DNA from: Acidobacteriota bacterium
GTDB lineage: Bacteria; Acidobacteriota; Terriglobia; Terriglobales; Acidobacteriaceae
DNA length: 58,463 bases
Assembly: GCA_021799405.1 (NCBI GenBank)
Contig: JAJZAL010000008.1
Coordinates: 1-58,463 of the forward strand
Reading direction: 5' to 3'
Under the pieces are notes generated by a model. It had not been told where the DNA came from. It saw only the letters and a list, made by a program, of their open reading frames with translations, and made no database searches. A program made the translations under genes and the position numbers. Positions 6,072 to 19,549 of the stretch are shown here, piece by piece; the first letter of the stretch is position 1; every line of letters begins with the position of its first letter.

Positions 6072-6755
6072 CTACGCTGGAAGATGCCCCGAATAGACGG
6101 CCATTCCCGCCACTGCATCCACGCCAATGGCGTCAAGAGCATCTATCTCCGCCTGTTCGCGAATTCCTCCGGCAACGATCAGCTTGCGCGAAGTTGCGGC
6201 ACAGAGCGACTCCGCGACGGCAAAGGGGAAACCTGTCATCGTACCTTCTGTGTCGACGTGCGTATAGAGAAAGCTGCCGCAATAAGGCTCTAACTGACGC
6301 ATCGCATCTACTGGCGAAACAGACGTCTGTTCCTGCCACCCACGAATCGCTACCGTTCCTCTCTTAGTATCGATACTGGCGACAAATGCCTCCGAACCAA
6401 TCGTGTCAGTAATTGCAGCGGCCGCTTCCACATTCACCGGATTCTCTGTATCCGCGCGAAAAAGTATCGAGCCAAATATGACGCGCTTCGCTCCAATGCC
6501 CAACAGTGCCTGCGCCTGCTCAGGAGTGCGCACTCCACCGCCAATCTGGCATGGAAGACGCCGAGTAATCCGTTCCATCAGCGCATGGTTATCGCCCTTG
6601 CGCATCGCCGCATCCAGATCAATCAGTTGTACCAGCGGGTAGACCGAAAATCGCTCAATCCAGTATTCGAAATCGTCGAACGCAAGCTTGAGCTTTTCAC
6701 CTTGCACCAGCTGCACAATGCGACCGCCCATCAGGTCAATGGAAGGAATCAGCAT
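6072..6755 (-). CDS. hisA: HisA, phosphoribosylformimino-AICAR-phosphate isomerase
   Basis: A 227-residue beta/alpha-barrel sugar isomerase, step four of histidine synthesis. The catalytic first Asp lies in IPSIDLMGG, the second in ASIDTKRG, and the phosphate sites in IGGGVRT and VAGGIRE. It is slightly shorter than the usual 240-250 residues but has both halves of the barrel. Its ATG overlaps the hisF stop by seven bases (ATGCTGA). It is the last his gene; only a 6-bp hairpin without a T tract (5969-5989) follows. Having hisF before hisA is opposite to the common order. Confidence 0.95.
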
Positions 6756-7510
6756 GGCAGCCTCACAGGAATAGATTCAGCAGCCAGCGCCGACTTCAAC
6801 GCCTTCACATCTGCGATTCCGAAGTGAAAAATGCTCGCTGCCAGAGCAGCATCGGCCCTGCCGCGGCCGAAAACATCCACAAAATGCTGCGCTTTGCCCG
6901 CACCTCCCGATGCAATAACAGGAATCTGCACAGCATCGCTCACAGCAGCCGTCAGTTCGCAGTCGAACCCCTCGCGCGTGCCATCTGCGTCCATCGACGT
7001 CAGCAAAATTTCACCTGCTCCGCGTTGCTCCGCCTCGCGCGCCCATGCCACTGCATCACGCCCCGTTGGCTTGCGTCCGCCGCTCACAAAGACTTCCGCC
7101 CCTTGCGCATTTCGTCGCGCATCAATCGCAACAACAACCGCTTGTGCTCCAAATTTCGTTCCGATCTCATCGATCAACTCCGGCCTGGACAATGCTGCCG
7201 AATTGACGCTGATCTTGTCCGCACCCGCATCAAATACCGCCGCAGCTTCCTCCGCCGTGCGAATCCCCCCGCCTACGGTAAATGGAATGAACAACCGCTC
7301 TGCTGCTTTTCTAACGGTTGCCAACAACGTACCCCGGCCTTCATGCGTGGCCGTGATGTCGAGCAGGACGATTTCGTCCGCGCCCGACTCGGCATGGCGT
7401 ACGGCCAACTCAGCTGGATCACCGGCATCTACCAGGTCGACGAATTGCACGCCCTTCACAACGCGACCATTCTTCACATCGAGGCAGGCAATAATCCGCT
7501 TCGTCAGCAT
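6749..7510 (-). CDS. hisF: HisF, imidazole glycerol phosphate synthase cyclase subunit
   Basis: A 253-residue beta/alpha barrel forming the cyclase half of IGP synthase. It uses ammonia delivered by HisH to close the imidazole ring and release AICAR. The catalytic Asp residues are in [13 protein letters not shown] and in VVVAIDARR; phosphate loops are in VGGGIRT and ASGGAG. The length is standard. The ATG overlaps the hisH stop by seven bases, and its own stop overlaps the hisA start in the same way, so HisH, HisF and HisA are translationally coupled. Confidence 0.97.
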
Positions 7511-8103
7511 GCCAGCCTCACAAAATTTTGGATCACCTGCCGGCCGGCAGCAGCAGACTTCTCAGGGTGAAACTGCACACCCATTATGTTGTCTCGCTCT
7601 ACTGCAGCCGTGAAAGGCTGCCCATACTCCGTAATCGCCACAGTGCTTTTCACCACCGGGGCGCAATAAGAGTGCGTGAAATATACGAATGCCTCCTGCG
7701 AAACTCCGGCCAGCAATCTTGATCCCTCCCGGATTGCGAGTGAATTCCAGCCCACGTGAGGCACTTTCAACTCTGTCGTCCTGAAGCGTTCGCACATGCC
7801 TTCAAACGCTCCCAGGCCCTGCACTTGCGGCGCTTCCGTGCTGCCATCGAAGAGCCACTGCAGGCCCACGCAAATGCCGAGAAACGGAACTCCCGCAGCC
7901 ACGCGCTCGCGGATCGCCTGGTCCAAACCACGATCACGGAGGAATTTCGTCGCTGCAAAATGACCTACACCTGGAAGAATCACCTTGCTCGCCTTTGCGA
8001 CCGCCTCCGGTTCATCCGCGAGTACAGGCTCCGCGCCGACGGCACGCAGTATCTTCATCACTGAGGTCAAGTTTCCTGCCTTGTAATCCACAACTGTAAT
8101 CAC
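7504..8103 (-). CDS. hisH: HisH, imidazole glycerol phosphate synthase glutaminase subunit
   Basis: A 199-residue class I glutamine amidotransferase. The nucleophile Cys is in GICVGLQ and the catalytic His-Glu pair in VQFHPEKS, a complete triad. It hydrolyses glutamine and channels ammonia to HisF. Translation begins at GTG (8103) inside a four-base GTGA overlap with the hisB stop, typical of coupled translation. The length is as expected. Confidence 0.97.
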
Positions 8104-8732
8104 AGCAATCCCTTTGTGCTCGGCAGCATCTCCTTCAGCTGCTGGTCCCGTGAGCAGGCAAAGCGCAGCGCCCGCGCAAACGCCTTGAAAAGAGCTTCGA
8201 CCTTGTGATGATTCGAACGTCCATAGACCGTTTTCAGGTGCACGTTTGCCTTTGCGCCGCGGGCGAATCCTTCAAAGAAATCTTCAACCAGCTCGGCTTG
8301 CAAATCGCCCACGAGCCGTGTCTTCACTTTGGTCTTCACAACCGAAGCGGTGCGTCCGCTCAAATCCACGGCAGCCAACCCCAGCGTCTCATCCATGGTC
8401 ATCAAAAAATATCCCGCGCGTAAAATTCCACGCTTGTCTCCGAGCGCCCTTTCAAAGGCCTCGCCAAGCGCGATCCCGACATCTTCCACCGTGTGATGCT
8501 GATCCACATCAAGGTCGCCCTTGCAGTTCAACTCCAGATCAAATCCGCCGTGTCTCGTGAACAATTCCAGCATGTGATCGAAAAAGCGAATCCCGGTCGA
8601 GATCTTGTATTGCCCCGTGCCTTCGATCGTGAGCCGGAGCGCAATCGCAGTCTCCGCAGTCTTCCGATCAATCGTTGCAGCCCGCTTGGCCGCAACCGCT
8701 CTCGTGGTTTTCTGCACCGCAGTTTTCTTCAT
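8100..8732 (-). CDS. hisB: HisB-type imidazoleglycerol-phosphate dehydratase
   Basis: A 210-residue monofunctional IGP dehydratase without the phosphatase domain found in enteric HisB. It has the metal-binding histidine motifs [29 protein letters not shown] and [17 protein letters not shown]. About 20 residues rich in Lys, Thr, Arg and Ala precede the conserved core, longer than in many homologues. The ATG at 8732 sits in an ATGA overlap with the hisC stop. A separate histidinol-phosphatase must be encoded elsewhere, since none is seen here. Confidence 0.95.
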
Positions 8733-9805
8733 CCTTTTCCCTTCCAGCCAATCTCCGCCAGCGCCGCTTCGAGGGCGTAGATGGCATTCACCGTCTGCTC
8801 GCGCGTTCCAATCGTGATACGCACGCAGCCTTCGCAACCAGGATCACTGGAGCGGTCGCGAACCAGCACGTTCCGTTCCCGCATCTCCTCCACGAACCGG
8901 CGATGCTGCGCGCCGATCCGCGTCAATACAAAATTCGCCGCCGAGGGCCAGCGCTGCACTCCATTCCGATCCAGCGCCGTCTCAAACTCCACGCGAGCCG
9001 CGCGCACCTCAGCCACATACCAGTTCAGATAGTCCATGTCTGCCAAAGCGGGCGGCAGGCAGGCAAGCGCCAGAGAATTCACGCTATACGGAGAAATCAC
9101 GCGCCGCATCCACTGCATCTGCTCTGCGGAAGCAGCCAGCATGCCAAGCCGGAGACCAGCGAGACCGAAGGCTTTTGAAAACGTTCGCGCAACAATCAGA
9201 TTCGGCGTCTTGCCGACCAGATCGATTACGGTCTCGCCAAGAAAGTGAAAATACGCTTCGTCCACCAGCACAGCGGCGTGCGGCGCAGCCTCAAGCACCC
9301 GCAGAATCTGTTCGCGGCGCACCGTTTGCCCGGTCGGGCTGTTAGGGTTTGCAATTGCAATCAACCGGGTCTGGGCAGTAATCGCCCCTAGCAATGCATC
9401 AAGGGGAAAGACGAAGTCATCTCCCGCCGCTATCCGGTCAATACGAGCTTCCGCTCCCGAACCATAGACCTCATACATGGAGTAGGTCGGCACGGGCAAC
9501 AGCAGCGCATCGCCCGGATTCAGATACGTCTGGCAAAGCACATGGATGGCTTCATCCACTCCGTTCGTGAGCAGCACCTGCTCCGGACGCAGTCCATGAT
9601 GTTCCGCAACAAGCGCCTCCACAGGCGCGCGCTCCGGATACTTCGTCAGGTCCGCGCTTGAGATTGCGCCCAGCACCTCACGCACCTTCGGCGAACAGGC
9701 CAGGGTATTTTCGTTGAAATCCAGACGCAGGCCGCTGCGATCGCCCAGTGGCGGATGATACTCCTTCATGCGCAACACTCCGGCGCGCGGTTCAAGCATA
9801 CTCAC
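8729..9805 (-). CDS. hisC: HisC, histidinol-phosphate aminotransferase
   Basis: A 358-residue fold-type I PLP enzyme that transfers an amino group from glutamate to imidazole-acetol phosphate. Motifs are RLDFNENT near the start, [17 protein letters not shown] and [16 protein letters not shown] with the PLP Lys. GTG at 9805 lies five bases after AGGAGG; an ATG two codons later (9799) is the alternative. Either start overlaps the end of hisD, and the stop overlaps hisB by four bases. Confidence 0.95.
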
Positions 9806-11078
9806 GACGCCCTCCTGCCTTGTTCAATCTTTCAAGCACCGCTTGGGCGTGTCCCGTCAGGCCTTCGGCTTCAGCCAGAGCCACTGCGGCCGGCCCAAGC
9901 CGATTTACACCGGCTGCCGTGTATTCCTGCACCGTTACAAGCTTCAGATAATCCATCACGCTCAGCCCGCCCCGCAAGCGCGCGAGACCGCTGGTCGGCA
10001 ATGTGTGATTCGGCCCGGAAACATAATCCCCGAGCGGCTGCGAAGACCATGGGCCGACAAACACAGAGCCGGCATTCCGCACCCAGGTCAGATCTTCGGC
10101 GCTGTCAATCGTCAAATGTTCTGGAGCCAGCCGATTTGTCACCTCTCTGGCCTCGTTCGCTGTTTTTGTAACTATCACAGCTCCGTTTTTTGCCAGAGAC
10201 TTCCGGGCGATGGAATTCGCCTTTCCGCTCCGGCTCACTGCCGCAGCCACGGCCCGTGCCAGATCACTCCGGCTCGTCAGCAATATGGCCACGGAATCCG
10301 GGTCATGCTCGGCCTGTGCAATAAGGTCCGTGGCGATGCCTTCCGGATCTCCCGCTTCGCTGGTGACGACAATCTCAGTGGGGCCGGCCAGCATGTCGAT
10401 CCCGCAGTCAAAACTCACCAGCTTTTTCGCCGCCGTTACATACGCATTGCCCGGACCCACAATCTTGTCCACTTTCGCAATGCTTTCCGTCCCATACGCC
10501 AGCGCGGCAACCGCCTGTGCGCCGCCGATGCGATAAAAGGCCGTCACGCCGCACAGGTAGGCGGCGGCCAGGGTTTCCTTGGCGGGCCTCGGCGAAACCG
10601 CAACGATGCGCCCCACGCCCGCCACCTGCGCTGGAATCACTGTCATGAGCATCGTCGAGGGCAGCGGATAGCGGCCGCTCGGCACATAGCAACCCACTGC
10701 ATCCAGCGGGATCACCTTCTGCCCCACCGTCACGCCCGGAGCCACGTTCATATCGAACTCGCGTGGGCGCTGTCTTTCGGCGAACCGGCGAATATTGTTC
10801 ATTGCCAGCTTCATCGCTGACCGCAACTCCGTCGAAGTCTCCCGCCAGGCTGCTTCCATCTCCTCGAAAGTAATCTCGATCGGCTCACTGGCCGGTATAC
10901 CGTCAAGCTTGGTGCGATGGCGCAGAAGGGCAGCATCGCCGCCCTTCCGCACGCTCTCCACAATGCGCCGGGCCACAGGCATCGCGCGCTCATAGCTAGC
11001 ATCGGTGCGGCTCGTCAGGCGCCCAAGCAGCGCGTAAACTTCTTCCGCCTTGCGCCCCTTCGTGCTCAACACGCGCAT
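9792..11078 (-). CDS. hisD: HisD, histidinol dehydrogenase
   Basis: A 428-residue zinc- and NAD-dependent enzyme that performs the last two oxidations from histidinol to histidine. Visible signatures are VGPGNAYVTAAKK, the catalytic Glu-His pair in NRLAPEHLTI, and the later His in NHTLPTSG. The length is normal for the family. The ATG at 11078 lies two bases after the hisG stop, so it is read by reinitiation or its own ribosome site. Its 3' end overlaps hisC. Confidence 0.97.
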   Translation of the reverse strand: MRVLSTKGRKAEEVYALLGRLTSRTDASYERAMPVARRIVESVRKGGDAALLRHRTKLDGIPASEPIEITFEEMEAAWRETSTELRSAMKLAMNNIRRFAERQRPREFDMNVAPGVTVGQKVIPLDAVGCYVPSGRYPLPSTMLMTVIPAQVAGVGRIVAVSPRPAKETLAAAYLCGVTAFYRIGGAQAVAALAYGTESIAKVDKIVGPGNAYVTAAKKLVSFDCGIDMLAGPTEIVVTSEAGDPEGIATDLIAQAEHDPDSVAILLTSRSDLARAVAAAVSRSGKANSIARKSLAKNGAVIVTKTANEAREVTNRLAPEHLTIDSAEDLTWVRNAGSVFVGPWSSQPLGDYVSGPNHTLPTSGLARLRGGLSVMDYLKLVTVQEYTAAGVNRLGPAAVALAEAEGLTGHAQAVLERLNKAGGRREYA

Positions 11079-11080
11079 GA

Positions 11081-11956
11081 CTAGAGCACCACCTTATTGA
11101 GGGGATATTCCACAATCCCGGTCGCCTCGGCAGCCTTCAGTTTCGGAATTACGTCGCGTACCACGCTCTCTTCGAGAATCGTGTTGACCGCAACCCAATC
11201 GGAGTTGCTGAGTTCGGACACGGTCGGCGAATTCAGTGCCGGCAGCACCGAGAGCACCTGTGCCAGATTCGATTTCAATACATTCAGCATCAGACCAACC
11301 TGCCCCTGAGCCGCGATGGCGCCGCGAAGCATCAGGGCAAGGGTGTCAATCTTGCTGCGCTTCCATTCATCGCTGTATGCCGTGCGATTCGCGATCAGGT
11401 GGGTCTCGCTCTCCATTACCGTATCGATGATGCGCAGGCGATTGGCGCGGAGCGAGCTTCCGGTTTCCGTGACTTCCACGATGGCGTCGGCCAGCGTCGG
11501 CGGCTTGACTTCCGTGGCGCCCCAGCTGAACTCGACATGTACGGGCACATTTTTCTCGGCGAAATAGCGCTTGGTGACTTCCACCAGTTCGGTGGCGATC
11601 GTTTGCCCACCCAGGTCTTCGGCTTTCTGGTAGGGCGAGTCTTCCGGCACCGCCAGCACCCAGCGGACCTTTCTACGGCTCTGCTTGGCATACACAAGGC
11701 TGGTCACGCTTTCCACGTCGAGACCGCTTTCCACCACCCAGTCAATACCCGTCAAACCGGCGTCGAGCACACCGTGATTAACGTAGCGTGCCATCTCCTG
11801 GGCACGAATCAGCATGCATTCGATCTCAGGATCGTCAATGCTCGGAAAGTAGGAACGCCCATTGGCGTAAATGTGCCAGCCTGCACGCTCAAACAAAGCG
11901 ATGGTTGCGTCCTGCAGGCTGCCCTTTGGAATTCCAAGGCGGAGCTTGTTCGCCAT
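11081..11956 (-). CDS. hisG: HisG, ATP phosphoribosyltransferase, long form
   Basis: A 291-residue long-form HisG, the first committed enzyme (ATP + PRPP to phosphoribosyl-ATP). The N-terminal transferase domain starts with [10 protein letters not shown] and includes [10 protein letters not shown] and the PRPP-site region [18 protein letters not shown]. About 80 C-terminal residues match the regulatory ACT-like domain that mediates histidine feedback, so a HisZ partner is not needed. The ATG at 11956 shares one base with the hisI TAA (TAATG) and has a strong AGGAGG upstream; earlier in-frame residues are rejected. Confidence 0.95.
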
Positions 11957-12306
11957 TAGCGGACCTCCTGTGCGACAGGAAATGAAATGGGCCGCGTGAA
12001 GCAGCTCACAGTACCCTCGTGGCAAACCAATCCATCGCCTTCCACCTCGACTCGGAAGAGGAGCGTGTCGTTGTCGCAGTCGGTTGCGGCCTCTAAGACA
12101 CGCAGGCGGTTGCCGCTGCTCTCGCCTTTCATCCACAGCTTTTGCCGTGTACGGCTCCAAAATGTGACATAACCGGTTTCCAGCGTCTTCTGGTAGCTCA
12201 CCTCATTCAGGAAACCAACCATGAGCACCTGCCCGGTTTTGGCGTCCTGGACGATGCCCGGCACCAGGCCGTCCAGCTTTTCGAAATCGATCGTTGCGTC
12301 CGTCAT
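11956..12306 (-). CDS. hisI: HisI, phosphoribosyl-AMP cyclohydrolase (monofunctional)
   Basis: A 116-residue PR-AMP cyclohydrolase. The magnesium site TDCDNDTLL and the zinc/cysteine motif with CHEGTVSCF are intact. There is no fused HisE pyrophosphohydrolase domain, and hisE is not elsewhere in the window, so that step must be encoded at another locus. As first structural gene of the operon it sits 40 bases beyond the attenuator terminator, with AAGGA eight bases before its ATG. Placing hisI first rather than last is unusual. Confidence 0.95.
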
Positions 12307-12345
12307 GTATCAAGTCCTTTTCTTAAGTCACGGTGGATATGACGC

Positions 12346-12380
12346 AAAAAGCCCGCTGGCTCTTGCGCCGGCGGGCTTTC
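12346..12380 (-). terminator. Attenuator terminator of the histidine operon
   Basis: Read on the minus strand, AAAGCCCGC (12379-12371) pairs with GCGGGCTTT (12356-12348) and is followed by a T run (12350-12346). The loop carries CGGC...GCC, extending the stem. It lies between the hisL stop and hisI. Its 5' arm contains CCGCCGGC (12374-12367), an exact complement of a segment in the hisL coding region (12431-12424), giving a mutually exclusive antiterminator pairing. Confidence 0.88.
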
Positions 12381-12403
12381 TCAAAGTCTCGGTCTGGCTT
12401 TAG

Positions 12404-12481
12404 CTATTTCGATCCAGACAGATCCGCCGGCACACTCGTCGCGTGGTGATGATGGTGACGATGATGGTGGCGAATCTTCAT
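12404..12481 (-). CDS. hisL: His operon leader peptide (attenuator), 25 residues with eight His
   Basis: The minus strand encodes MKIRHHHRHHHHH followed by ATSVPADLSGSK and TAG, with eight His codons in a run of nine. It lies upstream of hisI and is followed 24 bases later by a Rho-independent terminator, the classical layout of transcription attenuation by ribosome stalling at His codons. A TTGACA-17-TATGTT promoter ends ten bases before its ATG, so the transcript would start only a few bases ahead of the start codon; no convincing ribosome site fits. His starvation should stall ribosomes at the run and leave 12424-12431 free to pair with the terminator arm. Confidence 0.9.
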   Translation of the reverse strand: MKIRHHHRHHHHHATSVPADLSGSK

Positions 12482-12491
12482 CCTGATATTG

Positions 12492-12520
12492 AACATAATG
12501 GCACGGCTTCGGGCTGTCAA
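12492..12520 (-). promoter_or_regulatory. Sigma70-type promoter of the histidine operon
   Basis: On the minus strand a perfect TTGACA (-35, 12520-12515) is separated by 17 bases from TATGTT (-10, 12497-12492). Expected transcription start is near 12485, three or four bases before the hisL ATG. Confidence 0.75.
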
Positions 12521-14268: not shown

Positions 14269-16137
14269 CTACTGTTTCGTGGGGCGAATATGCAGTTCGC
14301 GCAACTGCGCATCGCTGACCGGCGTAGGAGCATCGACCATCAGATCGATTGCCTTTGCTGTCTTCGGGAAAGCAATTACTTCGCGCAAACTGGTGGCTCC
14401 CGCAAGAATCATGACGAGCCGATCCAGCCCCAGCGCAATGCCGCCGTGGGGCGGAGTGCCGTACTGCAGCGCTTCCAGAAAGAAGCCAAACCGCGTCTTC
14501 GCTTCTTCATCTGACATGCCCAGCGCTCGGAAAATCTCCTGTTGAACATCCTGCCGGTGAATACGGATCGAGCCGGAACCCAACTCCAGTCCGTTCATCG
14601 CCAGATCGTAATACCGCGCGCGCACCGATGCCGGATCGGAGACCAGCCGGTCCATATCCTCGTCATGCGGCGACGTAAATGGGTGGTGCGCCGGCATCCA
14701 CTGCTGCTCCGCCTCGTCGTACTCGAACATGGGAAAATCCGTCACCCAGATCGGGCGAAAAGCCCGCGAACCTTCCACCAGGCCAGTTTCTCGCTCAGGA
14801 TCACCCACAACAGCATCCGTTACCCCAAAGCAACCGTGCCGGTCAGCATACTTCTTGGCCAGTTCCACACGAAGATTGCCCGCCGCGCTCAGGACAGCAA
14901 TTTCCCGCTCAGAAAGCCGTCCCGTCAGCTTCGTGTCGCTCGCGCGAATATGATGCGTGGGGTCGCCCGCCACAATCACCAGCAAGTCATGCTCGTTCGC
15001 GTCCGCCGCTGCACGAACCTTGGCAACGACTTCGGGGAATGTCTTTTCCAGCCGCTTGAGATCGTCAATCAGCTTCGCGCCCTTTCGCATATCAAACAAC
15101 GGGCGGTTGTCCTCACGCTCTTTGCGCGAGAGCTCGCCAACCTTCGGAACACGCACCGCCACGATGGGCAGTGCGGGATCGATTGCCAGCGTCTCCAGCT
15201 GTCCCACGGTAAATGCCTCGCGCACATCGGTCAGTCCCGGCAACCGCAGGTCGGGCTTGTCAATGCCAAATCGCCGCATCGCCTCGTCATAGGTAATCTG
15301 CGGAAATGGCGTCGGTAGCGCGATTCCGACTGCTTTGAAAGCCGCCGCCAGGAAGCCTTCCACGACGCGGAAGACCGTCTCCTGCTGCGGAAAGGTCATC
15401 TCCAGGTCGATCTGCGTGAATTCCGGCTGGCGATCCGCCCGCAGGTCTTCGTCGCGGAAGCAGCGTGCGATCTGGAAATAGCGGTCCATGCCGGAGATCA
15501 TCAAAATCTGCTTGAAGAGCTGCGGCGACTGCGGCAGGGCATAAAATTCGCCCGGATGCACCCGGCTCGGCACCAGATAATCGCGCGCGCCCTCGGGTGT
15601 AGACCGCGTCATGAACGGCGTCTCAATCTCAAAAAAACCCTGGCTTGACAGGTACTTTCGCACCGCCAGCGCCACCTTGTGGCGCACCTCAAAATTGTGC
15701 TGCATCTCCGGGCGGCGCAGATCGATATACCGGTACTTCAGCCGGACCTCTTCGTTTCCGATCGCCTCTTCCGCAGGCGAAAACGGCGGCACTTTGGCAT
15801 CGTTCAGGATCAGCAGTTCGCTGGCCGCAATCTCAATTTCTCCGGTCGGCATCTTCGGATTCACGGCATCCTTGCCGCGCTCGCGCACAGCACCGGTGGC
15901 GCAGATAACGTACTCAGGCCGGGCCTGCTCGGCTTTGGCGTGGCCGTCAGGGCTCAAATCCTTATCGAGCACCACCTGCGTCATGCCGTAGCGGTCGCGC
16001 AGGTCAAGGAAAATCAGGTTACCGTGGTCGCGCCGGCGATTGACCCATCCCATGATGGTGACGGTTTGCCCAGCGTGCGCCGTGCGCAGCTCTCCGCAAG
16101 TATGCGTGCGTTGTTTGGTGCCTAGAAAATCCAGCAA
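14269..16137 (-). CDS. aspS: Aspartyl-tRNA synthetase
   Basis: A 622-residue bacterial-type class IIb aminoacyl-tRNA synthetase. In order it shows the N-terminal OB-fold anticodon-binding domain (VTIMGWVNRRRDHGNLIFLDLRD), class II motif 2 (FRDEDLRADRQPEFTQID), a bacterial GAD insertion domain in the middle, and motif 3 (GIALGLDRLVMILAG). Length matches the bacterial type. A TTG at 16137 is used, seven bases after AAGGAAG; no ATG lies closer. It follows hisS by 67 bases in the same direction, a common hisS-aspS arrangement. Whether it also charges tRNA-Asn cannot be told. Confidence 0.96.
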   Translation of the reverse strand: MLDFLGTKQRTHTCGELRTAHAGQTVTIMGWVNRRRDHGNLIFLDLRDRYGMTQVVLDKDLSPDGHAKAEQARPEYVICATGAVRERGKDAVNPKMPTGEIEIAASELLILNDAKVPPFSPAEEAIGNEEVRLKYRYIDLRRPEMQHNFEVRHKVALAVRKYLSSQGFFEIETPFMTRSTPEGARDYLVPSRVHPGEFYALPQSPQLFKQILMISGMDRYFQIARCFRDEDLRADRQPEFTQIDLEMTFPQQETVFRVVEGFLAAAFKAVGIALPTPFPQITYDEAMRRFGIDKPDLRLPGLTDVREAFTVGQLETLAIDPALPIVAVRVPKVGELSRKEREDNRPLFDMRKGAKLIDDLKRLEKTFPEVVAKVRAAADANEHDLLVIVAGDPTHHIRASDTKLTGRLSEREIAVLSAAGNLRVELAKKYADRHGCFGVTDAVVGDPERETGLVEGSRAFRPIWVTDFPMFEYDEAEQQWMPAHHPFTSPHDEDMDRLVSDPASVRARYYDLAMNGLELGSGSIRIHRQDVQQEIFRALGMSDEEAKTRFGFFLEALQYGTPPHGGIALGLDRLVMILAGATSLREVIAFPKTAKAIDLMVDAPTPVSDAQLRELHIRPTKQ

Positions 16138-16204: not shown

Positions 16205-17488
16205 CTAGCCCCTGAGATGGTGAATCAAATCTGCTCGCGCCACCTTCACCTGCTCGCCGGTGGCGAAATCTTTTACGGTCAGAATACCGGACTTCTGCTC
16301 GTCTTCTCCGAAGAGCACGATCCTGCTCGCCAGCTTATTCCCCACTTCAAACGACTTCTTAAGCCGGAAGCTCCCGTCGCCCAGTTCAATGCGCAATCCC
16401 GTCCGCCGCAACTCGCGCGCCAGTTCCAGCGCGGGCGCATTCATCGCCTCGCCCAGCGGTGCGACATAAGCGTCTGCCAGCCCCCCTGGTGCGGCCTCGG
16501 CCTGCGCCTGCAGCGTGAGAATCAGCCGGTCTTCCCCTATGGCAAATCCAATGCCCGGCGCCTTTGGCCCTCCGATGGCCTCGCTCAATCCGTCATACCG
16601 TCCACCGCCCAGCAGAGCGTTCTGCGCGCCCAATCCTCCATGGCTGAACTCGAACGTCGTCCGTGTGTAGTAGTCCAATCCGCGCACCAGTCTTGGATTC
16701 ACCTCATAAGGCACCCCGCAGGCATCCAGCGCCGCGCACACAGCGGCAAAGTGCGTCTTCGAATCATCGTCCAGGTACTCCGCAATCTTCGGCAGCGCCT
16801 CGATGATGGGCTGGTCTTCCGGCACCTTGCAGTCCAGCACCCGCAGCGGATTCGTCTCCGCCCGGCGCTGGCAGTCGACGCACATCTTCGGAGCCTTATC
16901 CTTCAGGGCCTCGCGCAAAGCCGCAATGTAGCGCGGCCGGTCGCTGGCCGAGCCGACCGAGTTCAGCGTCAGCTTCCAGTCTTTTATGCCAAGCTCATTC
17001 AAGAAACTGGCCAGCATCTCCAGCACTTCGGCATCCCGCAGCGGCGATTCCGATCCCGCGCTGGGGGGGCCAATCACCTCCGCGCCAATCTGCCAGAACT
17101 GCCGGTAGCGGCCCTTTTGCGGACGCTCCCGCCGGAACTGCGGCCCGATGTAGAAAAGCTTCTGCAGCAGCCCCTTATCGCCCAGCTTGTGCTCGATGTA
17201 CGCCCGCACCACGCCAGCCGTGTTTTCCGGGCGAAGGGTCAGCGATTGTGCCTTTTCCGACTGCGCCCGCGCCCGATCTTCCCACGTGTACATCTCCTTG
17301 GAGACGATATCCGTTTCCTCGCCGACGCTGCGGGCAAATAGCGAGGTATCCTCGAAAATCGGTGTACGAATTTCGCCGAAGTTGTAGCGCGCAAACACGC
17401 GCCGCGCCGTCTCCTCGACGCGGTTCCAAAGCTCTGTTTCCGGAGGCAGCAGATCGCGCGTACCCCGCACCGCCTTTAGTGTGCTCAT
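16205..17488 (-). CDS. hisS: Histidyl-tRNA synthetase
   Basis: A 427-residue class IIa synthetase. It starts with the typical LKAVRGTRDLLP, has motif 2 (LFYIGPQFRRERPQKGRYRQFWQIGAE), the histidine-specific LVRGLDYYTRTTFEF and GGGRYDGL, and a C-terminal anticodon-binding domain ending in the ARADLIHHLRG stretch. It attaches histidine to tRNA-His in the cytoplasm. The ATG at 17488 is followed directly by conserved sequence. It heads a probable hisS-aspS unit and is divergent from mnmG. Confidence 0.97.
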   Translation of the reverse strand: MSTLKAVRGTRDLLPPETELWNRVEETARRVFARYNFGEIRTPIFEDTSLFARSVGEETDIVSKEMYTWEDRARAQSEKAQSLTLRPENTAGVVRAYIEHKLGDKGLLQKLFYIGPQFRRERPQKGRYRQFWQIGAEVIGPPSAGSESPLRDAEVLEMLASFLNELGIKDWKLTLNSVGSASDRPRYIAALREALKDKAPKMCVDCQRRAETNPLRVLDCKVPEDQPIIEALPKIAEYLDDDSKTHFAAVCAALDACGVPYEVNPRLVRGLDYYTRTTFEFSHGGLGAQNALLGGGRYDGLSEAIGGPKAPGIGFAIGEDRLILTLQAQAEAAPGGLADAYVAPLGEAMNAPALELARELRRTGLRIELGDGSFRLKKSFEVGNKLASRIVLFGEDEQKSGILTVKDFATGEQVKVARADLIHHLRG

Positions 17489-17587: not shown

Positions 17588-19549
17588 ATGCCGTTAATCG
17601 AACAATATGACGTCGCGGTCGTAGGAGCAGGCCACGCCGGCTGTGAAGCCGCCACTGCCGCTGCCCGCATGGGGCTGCGCACGGCGCTCTTCACGCTCAA
17701 CCTCGACCTTATTGCCCAGATGTCCTGCAATCCCGCCGTCGGCGGCATCGCCAAGGGCCATCTGGTTCGCGAGGTCGACGCTCTCGGTGGCATCATGGGC
17801 GAGGTTGCGGACGCCGTCGGCATCCAGTTCCGCCTGCTCAACACCTCGCGCGGTCCGGCTGTCTGGTCGCCTCGCGCTCAATGCGACAAGCAGCAGTACC
17901 GCCTCAAAATGCGCGAAATGCTCGAGTCGCAGCCGAATCTCTTCATCAAGCAGGCTGAAGTCGTCGACGTGGTGATCGAAGAGTCCCGCATCACCGGCAT
18001 CCGGCTTCGTGATGGCCGCGTGATTCATGCCGGAGCCACGGTCATCACCACCGGCACGTTCCTCAACGGGCTCATCCATTGCGGCGAACAACGTATTCCC
18101 GCAGGGCGCTCCGGCGAGCCGCCATCGGTTCTGCTGGGCGAATCTCTCAAACACCTTGGCCTGCGCGGCTGCCGCCTCAAAACCGGAACTCCGCCGCGCC
18201 TCGACGGCCGCACCATCGACTGGTCAAAGTTTGAAGAGCAGCCCGGCGACGCCGATCCTACGCCCTTCAGCTTCCGCACAAAGACGCTGCCGATGCGGCA
18301 AATCTCCTGTCACATCGCCTACACGACACCGGAAACCTTGCGGCTCATCCGCGAGAATGTGCATCGTTCGCCCATGTATTCCGGCCAGATCGAGGCCATC
18401 GGCCCACGCTACTGCCCTTCCATTGAAGACAAGGTAGTCAAGTTCCCGGACAAGGACCGCCACCAGTTCTTCCTCGAACCCGAAGGCCTCAACACGCACG
18501 AGGTTTACGTCAACGGCATGTCCACCTCGCTGCCCATGGACGTGCAATTCGCCATTGTCCGCTCCATTCCGGGCCTCGAGGAAGCGGAGATGCTGCGCCC
18601 CGGCTACGCCATCGAATACGACTCCATTGACCCCACCGAACTTGACCGCTCACTCCGCGTCAAGAAGTTCGAGGGGCTGTACCTGGCCGGGCAGATCAAT
18701 GGCACGAGCGGCTACGAGGAAGCAGCGTGCCAGGGCATCATGGCGGGCATCAATGCAGCTCTGCACGTGCGGAACGAGCAGCCCTTCACCCTCAACCGCA
18801 CCGAAGCGTACACCGGCATCCTCATCGATGACCTCATCTCCAAAGGCACCAACGAGCCTTACCGCATGTTCACCTCGCGCGCGGAGTTCCGCCTCCACCT
18901 GCGCATCGACAATGCGGATCGCCGCCTGACCCCCTATGGCCGCCGGCTTGGTCTCATTGACGACCAGGCATGGGCCGACTACGAATCCAAGCAGGCGCGC
19001 GCTGTGGCGCTGGAGAAGCTCCTCGCCACCAGGCGAATCAAGGAAGGCAGCTGCGCAGAGTCTGCCCTGGCAGCCGGAGGCGTCGCCGATACAGGCTCTA
19101 TCGCCGGCCAGAGCTACGCGCAACTCCTCAGGCGGCCTGAAGTCAAGATCGAGACGCTATGGCCGCCGATCCTCGAAGAAATTACCTCCGGAAGCGATGC
19201 CACACTGTTCACCTCATGGCTCAATCAACCGGAAAAGGCATCGGCCCCGCTGCCTGCGCACGTCCGTAACGAGCTCAAAACTGTCGAAACGGAAATCAAG
19301 TACGCGGGCTATCTTGACCAGCAGCGCAAGTCGATGGAGAAGCTCAAGAAGGCCGAATCGCGTGTCATCCCCGACTGGTTTGATTACCAGGCCGTCAGCG
19401 GCCTTTCGCGTGAAATGCAGGAAAAGCTCCTGCGCGTGCGCCCGCAAACCATCGGCCAGGCCAGCCGCATCCCCGGTGTCACCCCGGCTGCGCTTTCGCT
19501 CATCAACGTCTACATTGAAATTCAGGGCCGAAGGCTAGCCGGGAAGTAA
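17588..19549 (+). CDS. mnmG: MnmG (GidA), tRNA uridine-5-carboxymethylaminomethyl modification enzyme
   Basis: A 653-residue FAD protein that with MnmE modifies U34 of certain tRNAs. The FAD motif [10 protein letters not shown] is at residues 13-22, followed by [24 protein letters not shown], the [14 protein letters not shown] region and LKTGTPPRL; the C-terminal helical domain is complete. No clear ribosome site precedes the ATG; a taaaat box ends nine bases before it, which may indicate a very short leader. It is divergent from hisS. Confidence 0.97.

Follow-up and report, generated by a model that had tools for sequence, protein, structure and literature searches.

The histidine biosynthesis operon of an acidobacterium, hisI-G-D-C-B-H-F-A, is most probably controlled by a classical, ribosome-mediated transcription attenuator that would sense charged histidyl-tRNA, a reading to which we assign a probability of about 0.93. 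The window analysed comprises 58,463 nucleotides (positions 1 to 58,463 of contig JAJZAL010000008.1, assembly GCA_021799405.1) from an organism whose nearest named relatives are Acidobacteriaceae, a family placed by NCBI in the Terriglobia, Acidobacteriota. The operon lies on the minus strand, its gene order being based on NCBIfam models (with a match below cut-off for hisA), and the divergent neighbour of the leader is kdsA, from 12629 on the plus strand. The leader elements and the genes are the following:

12515 to 12520, minus strand: -35 hexamer TTGACA, matched at 5/6 positions or more ahead of the leader start in 101/103 family loci
12492 to 12497, minus strand: -10 hexamer TATGTT, spacer of 17 nt
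12482 to 12486, minus strand: probable transcription start region, 1-5 nt 5' of the ATG, placed from the 10-nt gap between -10 and ATG and from the family distribution
12404 to 12481, minus strand: leader ORF MKIRHHHRHHHHHATSVPADLSGSK, ATG at 12481, stop codon TAG at 12406-12404
12443 to 12469, minus strand: presumed regulatory codons HHHRHHHHH, eight His and one Arg
12469 to 12476, minus strand: segment 1 GAUUCGCC, potential protector partner of 12428-12421, with duplex energy rather than aligned covariation as its basis in the family
12424 to 12433, minus strand: segment 2 GUGCCGGCGG, antiterminator 5' strand
12414 to 12419, minus strand: GTCTGG, antiterminator inner helix, partner 12397-12392, not conserved across the family
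12392 to 12397, minus strand: CCAGAC, partner of 12419-12414
12365 to 12378, minus strand: segment 3, terminator 5' arm and antiterminator 3' strand
12349 to 12360, minus strand: segment 4, terminator 3' arm
12346 to 12350, minus strand: T tract TTTTT of the intrinsic terminator
12315 to 12319, minus strand: Shine-Dalgarno-like AAGGA of hisI
11956 to 12306, minus strand: hisI, phosphoribosyl-AMP cyclohydrolase, first structural gene, ATG at 12306 (NF000768, above cut-off)
11081 to 11956, minus strand: hisG (TIGR00070), with a probable ATG start overlapping the hisI stop by 1 nt (TAATG)
9792 to 11078, minus strand: hisD (TIGR00069)
8729 to 9805, minus strand: hisC (TIGR01141)
8100 to 8837, minus strand: hisB frame, the true start being internal (NF002111)
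7504 to 8103, minus strand: hisH (TIGR01855)
6749 to 7510, minus strand: hisF (TIGR00735)
6072 to 6755, minus strand: hisA (best family TIGR00007, 155.6 bits, below the cut-off of 228.95)

All the elements named in a preliminary description of this region were found at the positions it had given, including a leader frame of 25 codons with a HHHRHHHHH run containing eight His codons. The exact complementarity it had reported between GCCGGCGG (12431-12424) and CCGCCGGC (12374-12367) extends to 10 bp if one G-U pair is allowed, and segment 2 (12433-12424) may instead pair with 12374-12365 of the terminator 5' arm, in a structure that encloses the GTCTGG/CCAGAC helix. The mutual exclusion of antiterminator and terminator which it had deduced holds, as both helices use a common arm and segment 2 is blocked while this arm sits in the terminator. 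The terminator hairpin (12378-12349) is GC-rich and located between the leader ORF and hisI; it contains one C-A mismatch, presumably the reason why a simple terminator scan of the window did not list it. The 145-nt leader RNA has a folding energy of -57.3 kcal/mol, that of shuffles being -41.3 (z -4.4); its minimum-energy fold comprises, besides the terminator, a 1:2 hairpin (GAUUCGCC/GGCGGAUC) and a small inner one. The pattern CAYCAYCAYNNNCAYCAYCAYCAY occurs only once in the 4.17-Mb genome, at the his leader.

This organisation is shared by the whole family, as far as its hisI loci could be tested. PF01502 was detected in 110 of 150 family genomes, and loci from 106 of these were examined (105 including the window, plus locus L327 of genome G018), the genomes G051, G052, G132 and G148 being left out for matches at contig edges. 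Two loci, L002 and L096, were treated as untestable because their upstream sequence is limited to 115 and 48 nt, respectively, in which no leader is seen. The His run and the terminator noticed in the window are both present upstream of hisI in 104/104 testable family loci (103 first analysed and L327). Six further family genomes are positive (L220, L223, L229, L230, L233, L234), as are 80/80 loci from 80 public contigs of the closest relatives, a set overlapping the family loci and including Acidipila rosea, Terriglobus roseus, Granulicella aggregans and Terracidiphilus gabretensis.

Within the 300 nt upstream of hisI, the 103 loci display 5-8 His codons per 9-codon window, whereas the reverse strand and shuffled sequences never exceed four (four being reached in 2/103 and 29/2060 cases, respectively). 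The leaders contain 5-10 His codons in total, not always consecutive, and Arg or Gly is often found inside the run. Both codons are used (CAT 439, CAC 308), a mixture predicted by selection on codon meaning. In 70/103 loci, 9 nt lie between the last His codon and segment 2. A terminator was called in 103/103 loci (median -22.9 kcal/mol) and also in L327; the finder is not very selective, as 160/309 shuffled regions also received a call, but a hairpin of -15 kcal/mol or better followed by a T-rich tail is found in 103/103 real against 6/309 shuffled regions.

The leader appears to be (near-)leaderless, a feature going beyond the preliminary description. Taking as start the last in-frame ATG 5' of the His run (L095 has no ATG), a TTGACA-like box (at least 5/6) begins 26-60 nt upstream in 101/103 family leaders and is exact in 76. 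The same search retrieved 12/103 hisI starts, none exact, and 15.2% of shuffled upstream regions, 0.9% exact. The first base of the box is at a median of 38 nt from the leader start, within 34-43 nt in 93 of the 101 cases, and a Shine-Dalgarno-like 4-mer precedes only 5/103 leaders vs 76/103 hisI starts. From this distance and the rarity of the motif, the leader probably starts at or near the 5' end of its RNA without a Shine-Dalgarno site, with a 5' UTR that would measure roughly 0-6 nt. Outside the family, a TANNNT motif ends 3-16 nt, often 8-10 nt, before the leader start in 26/27 loci of the family coded f2, 9/9 of f68, 21/21 of f71, 22/23 of f72 and 6/7 of f73. According to the available excerpt of PMC3160421, TANNNT about 12 bp 5' of the start codon is a mark of leaderless genes, which average 13.3% in three Acidobacteria.

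The same His-sensing leader could nevertheless be an ordinary led ORF, if transcription started farther upstream and TTGACA/TANNNT were not the main promoter. The f2 loci, of which only 2/27 have a recognisable -35, and a few loci without a good -10 at the right place (L049, L250, L265, L291) are in line with such a start, but the frequency and position of the box in the family and the scarcity of Shine-Dalgarno motifs before the leaders make it rather unlikely. A genome search for other leaderless amino-acid leaders returned 11 exact-TTGACA promoter-ATG sites, of which only the his one qualifies. By eye, the ten other exact TTGACA-TANNNT-ATG sites of genome G000 (L347-L356) include a GntR-type start and two PadR-type regulator starts, as well as a short ORF 73 nt before a MraZ-like ORF (L353); the genes at these sites are possibly leaderless.

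The leader, the terminator and the arm that serves both helices are observed directly, as is their covariation in an alignment of the 103 family leaders. In the antiterminator helix 2:3, 91.0% of cells are paired, and sliding by 1-3 columns lowers this to 28-44%; for the terminator helix 3:4 the values are 88.5% and 28-50%. These comparisons are biased in favour of the unslid helices, since the reference structure was drawn from one aligned sequence. Two-sided changes, the stronger point, affect 5/10 pairs of helix 2:3, with 39 such cells vs 7.3 in shuffles, and reach 93 cells vs 41 for helix 3:4, these shuffle counts on related sequences not being equivalent to probabilities. Some columns of the shared arm co-vary with both partners, as seen in the segment 2-3-4 triples (U-A-U 30, C-G-C 12; G-U-A 37, G-C-G 30), and helix-breaking triples are also present, such as U-A-C in 16. 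Conservation in the family and covariation of both alternative helices support the ribosome-stalling attenuator proposed from the window. The longest uninterrupted Watson-Crick helix proved too crude for assessing 2:3 (5.9 on average for own, 5.3 when swapped and 4.6 when shuffled; at least 7 bp in 33/103), and column-wise counts were preferred because it is blind to G-U pairs. A 1:2 protector pairing, absent from the preliminary description, is possible: the duplex energy is -26.4 vs -21.0 with a codon-permuted segment 1, the own sequence beating the control mean in 89%, and the alignment of the 103 leaders contains no conserved columns for it.

The reading frame of the conserved tail differs between families. 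In f1, GTGTCGGCGG or a close variant is mostly in frame V-S-A, the frame being also shifted in three members (L019, L073, L105), while f71 and f73 read TGTCAGCGG, or something close to it, as C-Q-R. The nucleotides remain constant while the amino acids change, which points to RNA pairing as the feature maintained in the tail, rather than the peptide. Loci in which the complementarity of segment 2 to the arm stands out from shuffles, below the 5% level, amount to 19/21 in f71, 4/7 in f73, 8/23 in f72, 9/27 in f2, 1/8 in f68 and 0/1 in f69; complementarity beyond shuffles thus seems clear in f71, partial in f73 and weak in f72, f2 and f68.

Short His-rich peptides can bind metals, and the ORF, which has its own promoter-like sequence and terminator, could encode a functional small peptide of this type, the terminator merely ending its own short transcript without attenuation. 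We consider this very improbable in view of its location directly before hisI in 104/104 testable family loci, of a tail conserved as RNA in frames that differ between families, and of the covariation of segment 2 with the terminator arm.

The attenuator reading was also evaluated by equilibrium folding with an assumed ribosome footprint from A-18 to A+14. In this model, with a ribosome on the third His codon, segment 2 occupies the terminator arm (P>0.5) in 91/103 loci. The corresponding figure for helix 2:3 is 58/103 with no ribosome and 34/103 with the ribosome on the stop codon, dropping to 0 when no pairs may span the ribosome; at the stop codon, segment 2 is within the footprint in 78/103 family loci. 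In the window, the truncated transcript without ribosome favours 2:3 (P 0.997), hence an untranslated RNA might read through. With the ribosome at the stop codon P(2:3) stays at 0.90, unless pairing across the ribosome is forbidden, because 20 nt separate segment 2 from this codon, which places the segment just beyond the assumed footprint. Termination in the window when histidine is plentiful would consequently need steric exclusion, or helix 1:2 formed behind the ribosome. The equilibrium fold alone does not settle what follows in the window once the ribosome is at the stop codon.

From these sequences, we infer that transcription, translation, stalling and the regulatory response would proceed as follows. 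Transcription would begin a few nt 5' of the leader ATG, and the first ribosome, having no Shine-Dalgarno site to bind, would load at the 5' end or close to it. If His-tRNA is scarce, the ribosome would stall within HHHRHHHHH and cover segment 1, so that segment 2 (GUGCCGGCGG) could engage the terminator 5' arm (CCGCCGGCGC); with 2:3 formed, no terminator would appear and RNA polymerase would proceed into hisI. If His-tRNA is plentiful, the ribosome would reach the stop codon, and segment 2 would be either covered or taken by segment 1 behind the ribosome. Segment 2 being unavailable, the hairpin 12378-12349 and the T tract would form and transcription would end before hisI.

At gathering scores, the only Rfam match in the whole window was a tRNA, with neither His_leader (RF00514) nor T-box. 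Of the six weak matches listed for the leader region at E values up to 10, none is relevant (Thr_leader at 14.8 bits vs a gathering score of 55). Translation-independent control, with a T-box or another riboswitch sensing tRNA-His or histidine and the ORF being incidental, has precedents in the T-boxes of Firmicutes his genes and in one proposed in Corynebacterium (excerpts of PMC9413887 and PMC3896937), but in the absence of any T-box or riboswitch match in these searches, and with a His run of mixed CAC/CAT left unexplained, it is the least credible explanation and extremely improbable.

The leader also extends across the class and into further classes, which the preliminary description had not addressed. 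In the class outside the family, 108 of the 113 genomes with a hisI match were examined, as were all 9 with a match in the order-level family f68, a locus being scored positive on a raw count of at least four His codons in nine upstream of hisI. Positive loci were found in f68 (9/9), f2 (27/28), f69 (1/1), f71 (21/25, L339 being too short for testing), f72 (23/23), f73 (7/7) and f76 (1/1). Upstream of hisI in f70 (0/10), f74 (0/8), f75 (0/3) and f78 (0/1), no leader was found. A terminator was called in each of the 89 class positives and reaches -15 kcal/mol or better in 84 of them; two f71 positives, L308 and L345, differ in look from the rest.

Most of the f70, f74 and f75 hisI matches are in long open frames (at least 220 aa), suggesting HisIE fusions. 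A strict tie of the leader to stand-alone hisI fails, as several short-frame loci have no leader (L344 in f70, L325 in f78, L343 in f71, and loci of f28, f36 and f49) and some positives are in long frames; the two tend to occur together, but with exceptions. Of the 104 genomes outside the class with a hisI match, 50 were tested, 30 for their best scores and 20 mostly picked for short hisI frames, and the resulting figures do not represent a random sample. One of the 30 best-scoring loci is positive (f14), as are 13/20 of the short-frame-biased loci (f14 1/1, f23 6/6, f32 1/1, f43 1/1, f45 3/3, f57 1/1); within the latter set, no leader was found in f20, f28 (2 loci), f36, f49, f54 and f63. The terminator is at -15 or better in 12/13 of these positives, L358 being the exception, and the leader-positive f14 locus L130 has no terminator call. 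Overall, most families tested within the class have the leader, as do six families belonging to other classes.

Other histidine-related genes were observed in the window. The histidyl-tRNA synthetase gene hisS (16205-17488, minus strand) shares its strand with the his leader and lies about 4 kb upstream of it, the intervening gene (14269-16137) being aspS-like by eye. The spacer between hisS and the divergent gene at 17588 measures only about 100 nt, which leaves hisS little space for a leader of its own. HisE (PRA-PH, PF01503) was not found in the his operon of the window (6072-12306) or in the whole 93%-complete genome G000, the control search detecting PF01503 in 14/14 genomes. Matches to PF01503 exist in 10/60 family genomes, all partial and weak (E 3e-7 to 5e-4) and in frames of 280-839 aa, which makes this an apparent pathway gap common to the family. 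A MazG protein is present in G000 and might carry out the HisE step.

The mechanism itself is classical; as far as open-licence PMC text shows, the phylum and the leaderless start are new. No description of a his leader or attenuator in Acidobacteriota was found in that text. The excerpted texts report His-leader attenuators in Gammaproteobacteria and some Firmicutes (PMC9413887), none before the his operons of Actinobacteria in a 2005 survey (PMC1262725), almost no predicted attenuator of Acidobacteriota with an assigned function in 2010 (PMC2965389), and short leader genes in Acidobacteria noted generally, by distance to the next gene (PMC4833913). On balance we favour, with some reserve, the broader view that Acidobacteriota carry an old His attenuator over several classes, whose leader peptide would be translated from a leaderless 5' end, so that the ribosome must load on the end of the nascent RNA, and whose RNA switch was kept while the reading frame changed between families. 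If true, this would tie attenuation to a 70S-type initiation and not to a Shine-Dalgarno site. The attenuator as such would extend His-codon leader-peptide attenuation to a major soil phylum, and the named genera Terriglobus, Granulicella, Edaphobacter and Acidipila provide a system for studying transcription-translation coupling at a leader apparently devoid of a Shine-Dalgarno site. It also suggests an annotation rule: short ORFs with a His run before hisI in Acidobacteriota are probably leader peptides.

T-box (His) riboswitches act by antitermination before his genes in response to uncharged tRNA-His, whereas no T-box was found in the acidobacterial leader, where a translated His-codon run would sense instead. 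The his operon of E. coli has hisG as its first gene, the acidobacterial one hisI. The his attenuator of E. coli and Salmonella (RF00514), as presented in the excerpt of PMC3896937, has in common with the acidobacterial leader an intrinsic terminator, a mutually exclusive antiterminator and a biosynthetic operon downstream. It belongs to another phylum, and the acidobacterial leader differs by the absence of a match to RF00514, by the Arg or Gly often present in the run and by its probably leaderless start. His-leader attenuators of Firmicutes are reported in the Bacillus cereus group, some Eubacteriales and Erysipelotrichales (excerpt of PMC9413887), and before hisS/hisZ (excerpt of PMC2965389). 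They are alike in having a His-rich leader peptide, a terminator and an antiterminator before his genes; by their published descriptions, they contain 3-5 consecutive His codons, against a total of 5-10, not always consecutive, in the acidobacterial leaders.

For the start of the leader, the closest parallels come from systems for other amino acids in other phyla. Polycysteine leaderless ORFs of mycobacteria are reportedly leaderless leaders of cysteine attenuators. In Sinorhizobium meliloti, the attenuator RNA of trpL/peTrpL begins with the start codon of the leader, or very close to it, and lacks a Shine-Dalgarno site; the excerpt of PMC7298713 gives the ATG itself as the 5' end of rnTrpL, whereas the acidobacterial 5' end is deduced from the position of the promoter.
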